Shown: positions 2,585-14,271 of the stretch, in pieces
How the letters are laid out: each line of letters begins with the position of its first letter
Numbering within the stretch: the first letter of the stretch is position 1
NCBI RefSeq assembly: GCF_001971785.1
Contig: NZ_CP019389.1
Location: 3,235,001 to 3,299,000, forward strand
Direction: 5' to 3'
Source: Seonamhaeicola sp. S2-3
Lineage (GTDB): Bacteria > Bacteroidota > Bacteroidia > Flavobacteriales > Flavobacteriaceae
DNA length: 64,000 bases
Program-made: the position numbers and the translations under genes
The notes under the pieces: model-generated
What the model was told of the DNA's origin: nothing
Database searches by the model: none
The model's input: the letters and a program-made list of their open reading frames with translations, nothing else

Positions 2585-4009
2585 ATGACAAGTTCAGAAT
2601 TTTATTCGCTTATAAAACAGCAGTTTCCGTTTCAACCTACTTTAAAACAAGATATTGTTTTACAGCAATTATCTAACTTTATTTTTAGTAAATCACCAAA
2701 TGCTTTATACGTTTTAAAAGGTTATGCTGGTACAGGAAAGACCACAATTATAGGTACAATTGTTACTCATTTATGGAAAGCCAAAAAAAGTGCTGTTTTA
2801 ATGGCGCCTACAGGTAGGGCTGCTAAAGTAATTTCTAATTACTCTAAAAAGGAGGCTTTTACTATTCATAAAAAAATTTATTTTCCAAAAAAAGAAAAGG
2901 GTGGAGGCGTTAAATTTGTGCTACAGCCAAATAAGCATAAAAACACGCTTTTTATTGTAGATGAAGCGTCTATGATTCCTGATACTCCTGGAGATTCTAA
3001 ACTTTTTGAAAACGGTTCTTTGTTAGATGATTTAATGCAGTACGTATATTCTGGTCACCAATGTAAACTACTTTTAATTGGTGATACCGCACAATTACCT
3101 CCTGTAAGATTAGATTTAAGTCCGGCGTTAAACGAAAATACTTTAAGCCTAAATTACAACAAAGAAGTTAGTAAAATGGAACTTGATGAAGTGGTAAGGC
3201 AAGAACAAGATTCTGGTATTTTAATGAACGCTACGGTATTACGTGAAGCTTTATCAAATGAAGTGTTTGATTATTTTAAATTTGATTTAAAAGGGTTTAA
3301 AGATATTGTAAGGCTTATTGATGGGCATGAAATTATGGATGCTATAAATGACGCATATAGTGATTTAGGTAATGAAGAAACCGCCATTATTGTAAGAAGT
3401 AATAAACGCGCCAATTTATACAACCAACAAATAAGAAGTAGAATCCTTTTTAATGAAAACGAATTATCTGCTGGTGATTATTTAATGGTAGTTAAAAACA
3501 ATTATTTCTGGATTAAACCAACCACCGAAGCTGGTTTTATTGCCAATGGAGATATTATTGAAGTTTTAGAAATTTTTAAAATTGAAGATCTCTATGGTTT
3601 TAGGTTTGCAACAGTTAAAATAAGAATGGTAGACTACCCCAGAATGAGACCTTTTGAAACCGTATTGCTTTTAGATACAATTAATGCAGAAACCCCTTCG
3701 TTGTCTTATGAAGATTCTAACAGATTATACCAAGAAGTAGCCAAAGATTTTGAAAACGAAAGTAACTACCGCAAGTTTTTAAAAATAAAAGCAAGCAAAC
3801 ACTTTAATGCACTACAAGTGAAATTTTCATATGCTATAACTTGTCATAAATCTCAAGGCGGGCAATGGCACACCGTTTTTGTAGAGCAGCCATATTTACC
3901 TAATGGTATTGATAAAGAATATTTGCGTTGGCTTTACACAGCTGTAACCAGAGCCAAAGAAAAATTGTATCTTATTGGTTTTAAAGACGATTTTTTTGAA
4001 GAATTATAG
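2585..4009 (+). CDS. RecD/Pif1-like SF1 ATP-dependent DNA helicase
   Basis: A 474-residue superfamily 1 helicase of the RecD-like AAA type. Visible motifs in order are Walker A GYAGTGKT (46-53), motif Ia APTGRAAK (74-81), Walker B FIVDEAS (123-129), motif III GDTAQLPPV (166-174), an arginine-bearing VRQE motif near 207, CHKSQGGQW near 420 and the C-terminal motif VI YTAVTRAKEKLYLIG. It is likely a 5'-3' DNA helicase in repair or replication-fork processing. It lacks the long N-terminal extension of RecD2, and no recB or recC gene lies nearby. Known flavobacterial relatives are simply called AAA or RecD-like ATPases. Confidence 0.85.
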   Translation: MTSSEFYSLIKQQFPFQPTLKQDIVLQQLSNFIFSKSPNALYVLKGYAGTGKTTIIGTIVTHLWKAKKSAVLMAPTGRAAKVISNYSKKEAFTIHKKIYFPKKEKGGGVKFVLQPNKHKNTLFIVDEASMIPDTPGDSKLFENGSLLDDLMQYVYSGHQCKLLLIGDTAQLPPVRLDLSPALNENTLSLNYNKEVSKMELDEVVRQEQDSGILMNATVLREALSNEVFDYFKFDLKGFKDIVRLIDGHEIMDAINDAYSDLGNEETAIIVRSNKRANLYNQQIRSRILFNENELSAGDYLMVVKNNYFWIKPTTEAGFIANGDIIEVLEIFKIEDLYGFRFATVKIRMVDYPRMRPFETVLLLDTINAETPSLSYEDSNRLYQEVAKDFENESNYRKFLKIKASKHFNALQVKFSYAITCHKSQGGQWHTVFVEQPYLPNGIDKEYLRWLYTAVTRAKEKLYLIGFKDDFFEEL

Positions 4010-4011
4010 CT

Positions 4012-4578
4012 ATGACACCAGAAACCATTATTAGTTTATGTTTAGGAATTGGACTTGCTGCTTCAGTAGGTTTTAGAGTGTTTTTGCCTTTATTTGCACT
4101 TAGTTTAGCAGCATATTTTGATGTTTGGCACCTAAATGAATCTTGGCAATGGATAGGCAGCACAACAGCATTAATAACTTTAGGAGTGGCTACTTTAGTA
4201 GAAATTGTAGCATATTTTATACCATATATAGATAATCTTTTAGATAGCATTGCAGTACCTTTGGCAGGTATTGCAGGTACCATAGTTATGCTTTCTACTG
4301 TAGCAGATTTAGATCCCGTAATTACTTGGTCTTTAGCTATTATTGCAGGTGGTGGTACAGCGGCAGCCATAGCAGGAACATCTGGTACCACAAGGTTGGC
4401 ATCAACAGCTACCACAGCTGGTGTTGCAAACCCTGTAATTTCAACTTTAGAAACGGGAACGTCAGTAGTAATGTCTGTTGTATCTATTTTTATGCCTTTT
4501 CTAGCCATTATATTGGTTATAATAATTCTATTTATAATTTTAAAGTTGTATAAAAAGTTTAAAAGGGCTAAAGGCTGA
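4012..4578 (+). CDS. DUF4126 family membrane protein
   Basis: A 188-residue integral membrane protein whose opening, MTPETIISLCLGIGLAAS, and the following VGFRVFLPLFALSLAA are characteristic of DUF4126. About five hydrophobic segments are visible, with a Gly/Ala/Thr-rich stretch around residues 110-145 and a Lys-rich cytoplasmic tail (KLYKKFKRAKG). The function of the family is unknown. It starts two bases after the helicase stop, so the two are probably transcribed together. Confidence 0.8.
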   Translation: MTPETIISLCLGIGLAASVGFRVFLPLFALSLAAYFDVWHLNESWQWIGSTTALITLGVATLVEIVAYFIPYIDNLLDSIAVPLAGIAGTIVMLSTVADLDPVITWSLAIIAGGGTAAAIAGTSGTTRLASTATTAGVANPVISTLETGTSVVMSVVSIFMPFLAIILVIIILFIILKLYKKFKRAKG

Positions 4579-4626: not shown

Positions 4627-5355
4627 ATGAGAATAATTTCAATGATTCCAGCACGTTACAGTGCAACCAGATTTCCAGGAAAACTCATGCAAGACCTTAA
4701 CGGAAAGTCTGTTATTTTAAGAACCTATCAAGCAACGGTTGGCACTAACTTATTTGATGATGTTTTTGTAGTGACCGATAGTGATGTTATTTATAACGAA
4801 ATTGTTAATAATGGTGGTAAAGCCATAAAAAGTAAAAAAGAACATAACTCTGGTAGCGATAGAATAGCCGAAGCTGTAGAAGATATGGATGTTGATATTG
4901 TTATTAATGTGCAAGGAGACGAACCTTTTACTGATAAAGAATCTCTATCTAAATTAATTAATGTTTTTAAAAATGATGATGATAAGGTAATTGACTTAGC
5001 TTCTTTAATGGTACATATTACAGATGAAGACGAAATAAATAATCCTAACACTGTAAAAGTTATTATAGATACTTTTGATTTTGCATTATACTTTTCCCGA
5101 AGTCCAATTCCATACCCAAGAGACAAGCATGTAAATGTTAAGTACTATAAACATAAAGGGGTTTATGCCTTTAGAAAAGAAGCGTTAATGGATTTTTATA
5201 AACTCCCCATGCTAACGCTTGAAGCCTCAGAAAAATTAGAACAACTAAGGTATTTAGAATACGGAAAAAGAATAAAAATGGTAGAAACCAATGTACAAGG
5301 CATAGAAATTGATACTCCTGAAGATTTAGAACGCGCAAAAAAAGCATGGAAATAA
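4627..5355 (+). CDS. kdsB: 3-deoxy-manno-octulosonate cytidylyltransferase (CMP-Kdo synthetase)
   Basis: KdsB activates Kdo with CTP to give CMP-Kdo for inner-core lipopolysaccharide. The 242-residue length is typical. The nucleotide-binding start [13 protein letters not shown] (7-19), the substrate loop QGDEP (96-100), the RSPIPYPR stretch and the closing [12 protein letters not shown] are family hallmarks. The next gene starts inside its last codons, and a KdnB-like Kdo 8-oxidase lies just downstream. That context raises the possibility that this enzyme activates 8-amino-Kdo, as the Shewanella enzyme does; sequence alone does not settle the substrate. Confidence 0.93.
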
Positions 5356-6050
5356 ATTATAAAAACATAAAAGTTATCGGCTTTGATGCCGATGATACAC
5401 TTTGGGTAAACGAAACCTACTTTAGAGAGGCAGAAGAGGCATTTTGTAAGTTACTTTTAGAATATGAAACACCTAACAAAATAGACCAAGAATTATTTAA
5501 AATGGAAATGAATAATCTAAACCTTTATGGTTATGGTGTTAAAGCCTTTGTTTTGTCAATGGTAGAATCTGCTTTAGAAATTTCAAACAACAATGTTTCA
5601 AATAAAACCATAGAAAAAATATTAAACATAGGTAAAAATATGCTTAATAAGCCAGTAGAATTGTTAGATGGGGTAGAAGATGTGTTAAAAGAGCTATCAA
5701 AAAAATACCGTTTAATTTTGGCTACTAAAGGCGATTTATTGGATCAAGAACGAAAACTAGAAAAATCTGGATTAACAAGCTATTTTCATCACATTGAAGT
5801 ATTAAGCGATAAAAAAGAAGCCAATTACTCTAAATTATTAAATCATTTAGACGTACAACCTTCAGAATTTTTAATGATAGGGAATTCTCTAAAATCTGAT
5901 GTATTACCTATAGTAAATTTAAAAGCCCACGCCATACATGTTCCTTTTCATACCACTTGGGCACATGAAGAAGTTAGTGAAAATGAAACTAACGGAAAAT
6001 CCTATAAAACTATAAGCTCTCTAAGAGAATTATTGAAAATATTAAATTAA
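5346..6050 (+). CDS. HAD-superfamily hydrolase (YjjG-like)
   Basis: A 234-residue haloacid-dehalogenase-type phosphatase. Motif I is GFDADDTLW with nucleophile D14 and acid D16, motif II is LATKGD, motif III the Lys of DKKEANY, and motif [13 protein letters not shown] helical cap is inserted between motifs I and II. It overlaps the end of kdsB by 10 bp, so it is translated with it. The short tetrameric KdsC family that removes phosphate from Kdo-8-phosphate lacks such a cap, so this is not an ordinary KdsC. The context still suggests a sugar phosphate substrate (inference). Confidence 0.85.
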
Positions 6051-6155
6051 AACATAGAATATAAATATATATTCTGAAGAAATTTCAACAGTATTACAAC
6101 CAGTAAAAATTAAAATAGTTTTATTTTTACATTTTGAAAAAGAAAACAACAATAA

Positions 6156-7238
6156 ATGAGTTATAAAAACTTTCCCATGGTGCCAAGAGTTATTTTTGGC
6201 AGAGGTAGTTTCAATCAGTTAAGCGATATTTTAGCCCCAAAACGCTTAAGTATAAATGCTCCATTTATATTTTTAGTAGATGATGTTTTTAAGGCAGATA
6301 CATGGTTAACTTCAAGAATACCATTATCTTATGAAGATAAAATTCTTTATATATCGGCAAATGAAGAACCAAAAACAGAACAAGTTGATGATTTGGTTGA
6401 AGAAATTATTTTAAACACAAAAGAAAGACCTTCTGGAATTATAGGCATAGGAGGCGGTACCCTTTTGGATTTGGCTAAAGCAGTAGCCATAATGCTAACC
6501 AATGAAGGTGAAGCTAAAGATTATCAAGGTTGGGATTTAGTTAAAAACCCTGCCGTTTATCACGTAGGTATTCCAACTATTTCTGGTACAGGAGCCGAAG
6601 TTTCTAGAACTACTGTGTTAACAGGACCAAGTAAAAAGCTAGGAATTAATTCTGATTTCACACCGTTTGATCAGGTTGTTTTAGATTCAGAACTTACAAA
6701 AAATGTTCCCACAGACCAATGGTTTTATACAGGAATGGATTGTTACATTCATTGCATAGAATCATTAAACGGAACATATTTAAACGCCTTTAGCCAGAGT
6801 TACGGAGATATTGCTTTAACATTATGTAAAGAAGTATTTTTAAGTGATGAATTGTCAAAAACTGAAATTCAAGAAAAACTCATGATGGCTTCATGGCATG
6901 GAGGTATGAGTATTGCATACTCTCAAGTAGGGGTAGCTCATGCTATGAGTTATGGTCTATCTTATCTATTAGGTACCAAACACGGCATTGGTAATTGTAT
7001 TGTTTTTGACCACTTAGAAGAGTTTTATCCCGAAGGCGTGAAACTTTTTAAGGAAATGAAAATTAAACACAATATTTCTTTACCTAAAGGTATTTGTGCC
7101 GATTTAAGTGATGACCAATTAGATACAATGATAGATATAGCATTAGACCTTGTGCCGCTATGGGAAAATGCTTTAGGAAAAAATTGGCAGAAAAAAATTA
7201 CAAGAAAAAAGCTAAAAGAGCTATACCAAAAAATGTAA
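6156..7238 (+). CDS. kdnB: KdnB-like 3-deoxy-D-manno-octulosonate 8-oxidase (Fe-dependent alcohol dehydrogenase)
   Basis: A 360-residue type III (iron) alcohol dehydrogenase. Nucleotide-binding GIGGGT is at 98-102, and likely metal ligands are D195, H199 (MDCYIHCIES), H262 and H276 (KHGIGNCIVFD). The segments NYQGWDL-like DYQGWDLVKNP, GIPTISGTGAE, DQWFYTGMDCYIHC and AYSQVGVAHAMSYGLSYLLG closely resemble, from memory, Shewanella KdnB, which oxidises C8 of Kdo before KdnA transaminates it to 8-amino-Kdo. Position downstream of kdsB supports this role. No kdnA-type aminotransferase is in the window, so function beyond the oxidation is inferred. Confidence 0.78.
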   Translation: MSYKNFPMVPRVIFGRGSFNQLSDILAPKRLSINAPFIFLVDDVFKADTWLTSRIPLSYEDKILYISANEEPKTEQVDDLVEEIILNTKERPSGIIGIGGGTLLDLAKAVAIMLTNEGEAKDYQGWDLVKNPAVYHVGIPTISGTGAEVSRTTVLTGPSKKLGINSDFTPFDQVVLDSELTKNVPTDQWFYTGMDCYIHCIESLNGTYLNAFSQSYGDIALTLCKEVFLSDELSKTEIQEKLMMASWHGGMSIAYSQVGVAHAMSYGLSYLLGTKHGIGNCIVFDHLEEFYPEGVKLFKEMKIKHNISLPKGICADLSDDQLDTMIDIALDLVPLWENALGKNWQKKITRKKLKELYQKM

Positions 7239-7239
7239 T

Positions 7240-7788
7240 ATGCAATGGTTAGCTAAATTTATCTACTATAAAATTCTTGGTTGGAAAGTTGTTGGAAATA
7301 CAACACTTTCTAAAGACCAAATTAAAAAAGCAGTTATTATAGCTGCTCCCCACACTAGTTGGCATGATTTCTATATAGGCGTTCTTTTGCGCTCTGTTTT
7401 AGGAGTAAAAACAAATTTTGTTGGTAAAAAAAGTTTGTTCGCTTTTCCTTTTGGATGGTTTTTTAGAGCACTTGGTGGCGCACCAGTTAACAGATCTTCA
7501 AATAAAAATCAAGTTCAAGAAATAGCAAATATATTTAAGAAAAAAGAAGAGTTTAGGTTAGCCATGTCTCCTGAAGGAACAAGAGAAAAAGTTGAAAAAT
7601 GGAGAACGGGATTTTATTATATTGCTAAAGAAGCACAAGTACCAATAATAATGTTTACGTTAGATTTTGAAAATAAGCAAAATAAAATTTCAGAACCATT
7701 TTATCCAACTAATGATACCGAAGCAGATTTTAAGTTTATTCGTAATTTTTTTAAGAACGTAAAAGGGAAAATACCCGAATATTCTTAA
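7240..7788 (+). CDS. 1-acyl-sn-glycerol-3-phosphate acyltransferase family protein
   Basis: A compact 182-residue PlsC-type acyltransferase. The catalytic HX4D motif is PHTSWHD with H38 and D43, and the glycerol-phosphate binding motif is SPEGTR (110-115). The Gly/Pro-rich stretch FRALGGAPVNRSS between them matches motif II. It starts one base after the kdnB stop, so it belongs to the same transcript. Members of this short subgroup act on lysophospholipids or other envelope lipids; coupling to Kdo genes suggests a lipid-A or outer-membrane role, but this is inference. Confidence 0.82.
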   Translation: MQWLAKFIYYKILGWKVVGNTTLSKDQIKKAVIIAAPHTSWHDFYIGVLLRSVLGVKTNFVGKKSLFAFPFGWFFRALGGAPVNRSSNKNQVQEIANIFKKKEEFRLAMSPEGTREKVEKWRTGFYYIAKEAQVPIIMFTLDFENKQNKISEPFYPTNDTEADFKFIRNFFKNVKGKIPEYS

Positions 7789-13374: not shown

Positions 13375-14271
13375 TTATTTAAAAGGTAAAACCATTAAAT
13401 CTTTGCCATATATAATTGTTCCAGAATAATTCTTTCTTATCTCTGCACTTGTAGCATTTTCATCTACATTGGTAAAATTGAAGTGTGTTAAAACTAAATT
13501 TTTAACATTAGCTTCTTTAGCCATTTGTGAGCTTTCTGCTAGATTAACGTGGGCTTTTTGTTTTGTTTTGCGGATGTTTTTATTTCTATTGTTAATCTTT
13601 TTAGCTCCTAATCTAATAGCTCCACCAGAGTCCATTATTAAATAATCTGCATTTTTAGCTAAAACTGGTAAAGATTCTGAGTAGGTTAAATCTCCCGAAA
13701 TTACTATAGATTCATTACCAACATCAAAACGATAGGCTAGTGTAGCAATGGTGTGTTTTACAGGAGTACACGTAATTTTAATATCACCAATATAGAAGGA
13801 GGTGTTTCCTTTTAAATTTTTTGCAGTAAAATTTGAAGTGACATTATTTGTATTTCTTCTAGTTCTTGACAATCAGTATGTAATATCTTCTTTATAGATT
13901 TCAAGAATATTATCGACTATAGATGTGGTTTGTTCTGGTCCAGCAATAATTATTTGATTACCACCAAGAAGTGATTTTATAAAAATAGGGGCAAACTCCT
14001 CATTGTGGTCTAAGTGATGATGTGTAAAAAGCAATCCATCAATATTTTTAATTTTTATACCTGCTTTATTCAAATTAGCTTGTGTTCCATTACCCATATC
14101 TACTAAAATATGAGTGTTTTTATAGGATATTAATACTGAAGGGCCAGAGCGTTCTGTATTAAATTTTGGTGATCCAGAGCCAATTATAGTTGCTGTTAAA
14201 TACTCATTATTATTTTGAGAGAATAACTGAGTGTTTAAAAAAAATAATATTAAGATTACGTATACTTTCAT
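13375..14271 (-). pseudogene. MBL-fold metallo-hydrolase, secreted, interrupted by an in-frame TGA
   Basis: Two consecutive open stretches in the same frame make one complete metallo-beta-lactamase-fold protein. The first (13873-14271) has a signal peptide (MKVYVILILFFLNTQLFSQ) and the metal motif THHHLDH. The second (13375-13872) has the later ligands PVKHT, SGDLTYSESL and LTHFN. They are separated only by a TGA at 13873-13875 after DITY, followed directly by TTG. An exported RNase Z- or arylsulfatase-like hydrolase is suggested. The stop could be a nonsense mutation, a sequence error, or a restart on TTG; one half alone lacks some metal ligands. Confidence 0.72.

Follow-up and report, generated by a model that had tools for sequence, protein, structure and literature searches.

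A kdsB-kdnB locus of Seonamhaeicola sp. S2-3 as probably one half of an 8-amino-Kdo pathway

The closest described system is the 8-amino-Kdo (Kdo8N) pathway of Shewanella oneidensis, formed by KdnB, KdnA and KdsB. Structures of the first two are available (5k8c and 5k8b, respectively), which we take to come from S. oneidensis, in agreement with the cited structure paper. The work of Gattis in 2013 reportedly found that the oxidation of Kdo at C8 by KdnB depends on a metal and on O2, and work published in JBC in 2013 is also said to have shown O2 use by KdnB, along with a higher sensitivity to polymyxin once the pathway is lost. The sections of the literature at hand describe Kdo8N as a hallmark of Shewanella, although one Shewanella section states that it has been confirmed in "other bacterial species" (PMC4052302). 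For the LPS of Shewanella sp. HM13, the C8 signal is given near 44-45 ppm (PMC6357163). Additionally, an excerpt of a survey of iron-containing alcohol dehydrogenases (Fe-ADHs) lists the S. oneidensis KdnB as the characterised member of group FeADH3 (PMC5125639), and kdnB is named in a gene list in part of a Leptospira paper (PMC8510873). In the flavobacterium Bizionia argentinensis, the relevant extract reports that Kdo-8-P was detected and treats the LPS sugar as Kdo, the linker itself not being determined (PMC9478572). Literature searches, mostly outside subscription journals, returned no paper on KdnA or KdnB in Bacteroidota.

The lineage analysed here shares with S. oneidensis the enzyme families and active-site residues of the pathway, but it belongs to another phylum, its kdnA lies outside the cluster, the neighbours are a HAD-type phosphatase and an acyltransferase, and some relatives carry KdsB-KdnB fusions. 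Two further comparisons are relevant. The canonical KdsB/KpsU (1gq9, presumably from E. coli) has the QGDEP and DTP motifs in common with the KdsB of this locus, but has Gly where the latter has Glu, two positions ahead of the DTP Asp. The Fe-ADHs ErcA, lactaldehyde reductase and methanol dehydrogenase share Pfam PF00465 with the KdnB of this locus, while their NCBIfam models match it with at most 118.5 bits, far below their cut-offs.

The locus and its four genes

The window is the whole stretch of 64,000 nucleotides that was analysed (C1:3235001-3299000). As the preliminary description had indicated, reading frames and profile matches place kdsB, a HAD phosphatase, an iron-type dehydrogenase and a PlsC-type acyltransferase in succession, all four on the + strand:

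2585..4009, +: RecD2-like helicase, the conserved left flank (TIGR01448, 148 bits, under its cut-off of 500)
4012..4578, +: DUF4126 protein, flank (PF13548)
4627..5355, +: kdsB, predicted CMP-Kdo/CMP-Kdo8N synthetase, 242 aa (NF003952, 271 bits, cut-off 193)
5305..5307, +: codon of Glu227 in KdsB, a candidate marker of Kdo8N, 2 residues N-terminal of the DTP-motif Asp229
5346..6050, +: HAD-type phosphatase, 234 aa (PF00702; best PDB match 3ddh); adjoins kdsB; not KdsC
6156..7238, +: kdnB, predicted Kdo 8-oxidase, 360 aa (457 bits vs 5k8c, tree, ligand residues)
6738..6983, +: codons of the KdnB metal ligands D195, H199, H262 and H276 (DHHH conserved by 117 of the 118 KdnB rows in the alignment)
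7240..7788, +: PlsC-type acyltransferase, 182 aa (PF01553); kdsB neighbour

Since the HAD gene starts 10 bases ahead of the kdsB end and the acyltransferase gene starts one base past the kdnB stop, the four genes may form one transcription unit; a promoter regular expression run on the window gave no match between 3900 and 8200. Elsewhere in the window (13375-14271, −), two adjoining frames in the same register look, by eye, like a single exported protein of metallo-beta-lactamase type that a stop codon divides in two.

The HAD phosphatase and the acyltransferase had been proposed as parts of a Kdo-modification cluster, a proposal that is not supported, as both persist beside kdsB where kdnB is absent: in the five fetched loci without kdnB, the HAD gene was still beside kdsB in all five and the acyltransferase in four, which led us to reject the latter as a pathway member. 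The HAD gene was rejected in the same role: it is found in 12 of the 22 genomes of the order with both KdnA and KdnB, yet also in 44 of the 174 others. Nor does it appear to substitute for KdsC, as the KdsC model (TIGR01670) has four matches in the genome at E 0.01, the HAD protein not among them, and the best of these is a canonical KdsC at another locus (C1:3691356). Judged by their gene context, both proteins are part of the kdsB neighbourhood rather than of the Kdo8N pathway. A defence library search with the two proteins gave no match.

KdnB, a distant kdnA and the predicted pathway

The resemblance of the dehydrogenase to Shewanella KdnB, noticed previously from the sequence pattern, goes far beyond chance. 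In a phmmer search against the PDB, the protein scored 464 bits with 3rf7 and 457 bits with 5k8c, which was deposited as 3-deoxy-alpha-D-manno-octulosonate 8-oxidase, vs 90 bits for the best other Fe-ADH. A phylogeny, run as a check that could have contradicted the assignment, leaves the dehydrogenase inside the KdnB clade together with 5k8c and 3rf7 (47 of the 49 rows on that side, support 99), although the outgroup consists of only two long-branched Fe-ADHs and the tree does not settle the position of 5k8c and 3rf7 among the KdnB groups. The presumed metal ligands, whose Asp-His-His-His positions we take from the Fe-ADH family, match those of 5k8c, which is among the rows that conserve them. 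No KdnB or KdnA model was among the NCBIfam matches of this protein and of the KdnA of the genome, so automatic annotation likely leaves both without a name.

The preliminary description had also pointed out that kdnA is missing from the window and had considered that it could lie elsewhere, that a different aminotransferase could replace it or that the 8-oxo sugar could be kept. A search of the whole genome for DegT-family proteins gave 12 matches, none of them inside the window. The fourth is a KdnA encoded in the same chromosome, 249 kb from kdnB (C1:3491375-3492562; L004:1351-2541), with 454 bits to 5k8b, deposited as Kdo8N transaminase, and 188 bits to the next PDB match; its presumed Schiff-base Lys186 and the PLP Asp are kept in all 31 aligned rows. 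Thus, the first option is borne out and the gap in the cluster is a window-edge effect, while a replacement enzyme and the retention of the 8-oxo sugar in LPS lose their support with such a close KdnA in the genome.

In addition to this KdnA and the separate kdsC, the genome has a single kdsB match (at E 1e-15) and a WaaA-like protein, to which five PRK05749 models match (171.8 bits and E 1.7e-50 at best, below the model cut-off of 438). Together, these genes suggest the ordinary reading of the pathway, from Kdo through 8-oxo-Kdo and Kdo8N to CMP-Kdo8N. KdnB, as a metal enzyme, would oxidise C8 of free Kdo to an aldehyde, which the PLP enzyme KdnA would convert to Kdo8N; KdsB would then activate Kdo8N as CMP-Kdo8N, and WaaA would transfer the sugar onto lipid A, so that it would become part of the LPS. 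The joint expression of the separated kdnA and kdnB is assumed in this scheme. On these sequence-based grounds, we consider that the genome probably encodes a complete Kdo8N pathway in two parts, kdsB and kdnB at this locus and kdnA at a distance of 249 kb (probability of about 0.86).

Distribution, gene order and losses

Across 196 genomes of the order, KdnB was found in 23 (E 1e-20) and KdnA of at least 246 bits in 23, with both in 22, one of which (G030) is counted on contig-end fragments of the two proteins. The exceptions are G071, with KdnB only, and G158, in which a 4.6-kb contig encodes a KdnA-like protein of 246.6 bits and no KdnB was found. In a survey of Bacteroidota, KdnB was present in 31 of 392 genomes at E 1e-60; among the 19 KdnB genomes new to the survey, 17 have KdnA of at least 361 bits and the remaining two, which belong to family code f31, encode KdnA-like proteins that match less well (223-232 bits). 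KdnA-like proteins of 213-238 bits from f31 (L269, L270, L271) were seen in 13 of the 65 genomes covered by that KdnA search, with KdnB (42-43% identity) in only two of the 13. KdnB was not found in plasmids at E 1e-40 or in viral contigs.

A scan of named genomes gave at least 571 loci with some similarity to KdnB. The best 80 of these are at least 71% identical, with titles of Flavobacteriaceae, on what we take to be the family of the named genera, or of Flavobacteriales/Bacteroidia bins; KdnA was present in all 49 genomes searched from these best 80. In Flavobacteriaceae, the family of the window, 220 of the 298 genomes sampled encode KdnA, with the weakest match at E 6.6e-98, and these represent 142 of 187 genera. 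The counts are for KdnA and come from a sample spread over genera, so they do not measure what fraction of species or cells carries it. In the 14 kdnA-positive loci fetched from this sample, kdnB always adjoins kdsB or is fused to it. Judged from these genomes, the predicted Kdo8N gene set is common in Flavobacteriaceae.

These data also bear on the idea that the pathway genes are silent or conditional, with Kdo8N made only under some conditions, which would be compatible with our main explanation. The separation of kdnA and kdnB speaks in its favour, but the 49 named genomes that were searched all have an open KdnA frame and the KdnB ligand residues are kept in all but one of the aligned rows, pointing to constant use, and we regard silence or conditional use as unlikely.

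In the best 80 of the at least 571 named loci, some of which are cut by contig ends, we found kdsB in 79, the HAD gene in 80, the acyltransferase in 73, a RecD-like gene in 75, DUF4126 in 46 and kdnA in only one. In contrast with the separated arrangement, kdnA lies immediately 5′ of kdsB, in the order kdnA-kdsB-(HAD)-kdnB, in L037, L038, L045, L046, L047 and L145, with the HAD gene between kdsB and kdnB in L038 and L145 only. Among split-gene relatives of the window type, kdnA adjoins a related nitroreductase-like gene in eight of nine (the exception is L061; L065, of a distant type, is outside this count), a pattern consistent with a single ancient relocation. Ancestrally, kdnA most likely lay 5′ of kdsB and would have been transferred later to a site beside the nitroreductase-like gene.

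Alternatively, the substrate of KdnB and KdnA could be a different sugar acid, such as one from a capsule or O-antigen, with Kdo retained as the linker of lipid A. The type 2 group (KdnB with ~50% identity) would be in line with this, as its KdsB lacks Glu227 and one genome, G563, encodes KdsB twice, with one copy next to kdnAB. However, in the window group one kdsB per genome was found, adjoining or fused to kdnB, and the PDB chains closest to the two enzymes carry the names Kdo 8-oxidase and Kdo8N transaminase, and we regard action on another sugar acid as unlikely. As for the two KdsB genes of G563, the copy at L211:283-1032 has altered catalytic motifs (PGANP, INN), and the one on the kdnAB side retains its motifs. 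In the type 2 locus L212:3136-9313, the genes facing kdnB-kdnA were named by eye as a second kdsB, an aldo/keto reductase, a kdsA-like gene and a transaldolase-like protein with a CBS-like end.

The genome with KdnB only, G071, keeps the gene order of the window (L051:5998-8530) with neighbours 67-75% identical, while its KdnB shows 49% identity and carries substitutions at two of the four metal ligands (H199Q and H262R). Its KdsB has Gly at position 227 and no KdnA was found in the genome, the best DegT match having E 8.8e-42. By comparison, KdnA, a DHHH KdnB and Glu227 are all present in G830, which shares the genus code of G071. G071 thus looks like a joint loss of the pathway, as far as its genes tell. 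In G765 (L248), a 20-contig assembly, kdnB is intact and Glu227 is present, with no KdnA at E 1e-60; an assembly gap may explain this. That KdnB acts without KdnA, either with another aminotransferase or with 8-oxo-Kdo left in the LPS, as the lack of kdnA in the window could suggest, is very improbable, as the genome encodes KdnA, KdnA accompanies KdnB across the order and the sole KdnB-only genome of the order survey is the one with altered ligands.

KdsB, residue 227 and fusions

The KdsB of the window passes the NF003952 and TIGR00466 cut-offs and has the QGDEP and IDTPED motifs. In the first comparison of KdsB by kdn status, made without L092 (a fragment) and L125 (no KdsB frame), Glu227 was found in 96 of 100 kdnB-positive rows vs 0 of 28 others, a position chosen post hoc from all alignment columns as the most different one. 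In an enlarged set, it was found in 122 of 137 KdsB rows of kdnB-bearing genomes vs 3 of 59 without an intact pathway, a count in which status was defined by kdnB (by KdnA for L254-L267), L248 (kdnB intact, no kdnA found in its genome) is set aside, six kdnA-minus genomes were picked by their listed KdsB coordinates outside genus code g2 and not at random, and the kdn-minus rows include L051, with the altered KdnB of G071, and seven f31 rows from genomes with KdnA-like proteins (213-238 bits). All 122 rows from genomes with window-type kdnB have Glu227, and the 15 kdn-positive rows without it belong to the f31 pair and to the distant kdnAB group, whose KdnB has ~50% identity.

In the trees, built without L211, L217 and L218 and with the named rows thinned beforehand at 80% identity, Glu227 changes five times, consistent with a single gain followed by four reversions to Gly. 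The reversions (G260; G071 with G630; G646; rows L152-L155) are each found without KdnA or intact kdnB, while a kdnA-minus clade with no kdnB at the locus (G603, G769 and G727) keeps Glu227. When pairs on supported branches were compared in 200 pairings, 155 of these gave three pairs changed the same way, none the opposite way and five alike, and the other 45 gave 2/0/6. As this kinship-aware test is not significant (p 0.25 at best), Glu227 as a marker of Kdo8N is a lead only, a candidate that is not decisive. The KdsB clade was rejected as a kdn marker, as kdn-minus KdsBs of the family reach 74% identity. In viral contigs, the Glu227 motif gave 20 loci, with no KdsB by tblastn and one 24%-identical DegT protein.

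Glu227 may help KdsB to recognise the 8-amino group, an idea that comes from alignments. In a structure model of KdsB (mean pLDDT 80.7), residue 227 lies in a short stretch with Asp229, ahead of the helix 231-241, in a model that does not show the direction of the side chain. By motif, Asp229 corresponds to D219 of the A. aeolicus KdsB, where D219 and D95 have been shown at the Mg site (PMC3149649). On the other hand, according to a review, KdsB is more tolerant of changes at C8 than of those at C7 (PMC12409901), so KdsB would not need to be specialised to accept Kdo8N.

KdsB and KdnB form a single protein in L043:5998-7836 (612 aa), L265:3899-5833 (644 aa) and L266:2858-4756 (632 aa), lengths that assume translation from the earliest start codon in each frame, so that they could be overestimates. 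These fusions span three genus codes and keep E227. A more ambitious proposal, which we put forward tentatively and hold at somewhat under even odds, is that in most Flavobacteriaceae Kdo8N is the standard lipid A linker instead of Kdo. In such a case, KdsB would be a dedicated CMP-Kdo8N synthetase that reads the 8-ammonium group through Glu227 and reverts when kdnAB is lost, and a KdsB-KdnB-KdnA complex would channel the reactive 8-aldehyde, an association frozen as the KdsB-KdnB fusion in some genera.

If true, a positively charged linker sugar thought to be a mark of Shewanella would be common in a large, mostly aquatic family, and the LPS charge, polymyxin tolerance and recognition of Flavobacteriaceae would need rereading. 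Caution would also be advisable with 8-azido-Kdo labelling and Kdo assays, as Kdo modified at C8 might be handled differently. The cases of gain, loss and fusion offer natural material on which residue sets the specificity of KdsB. Judged by its length, a 616-aa frame at the kdsB of G789 is a possible fourth fusion.
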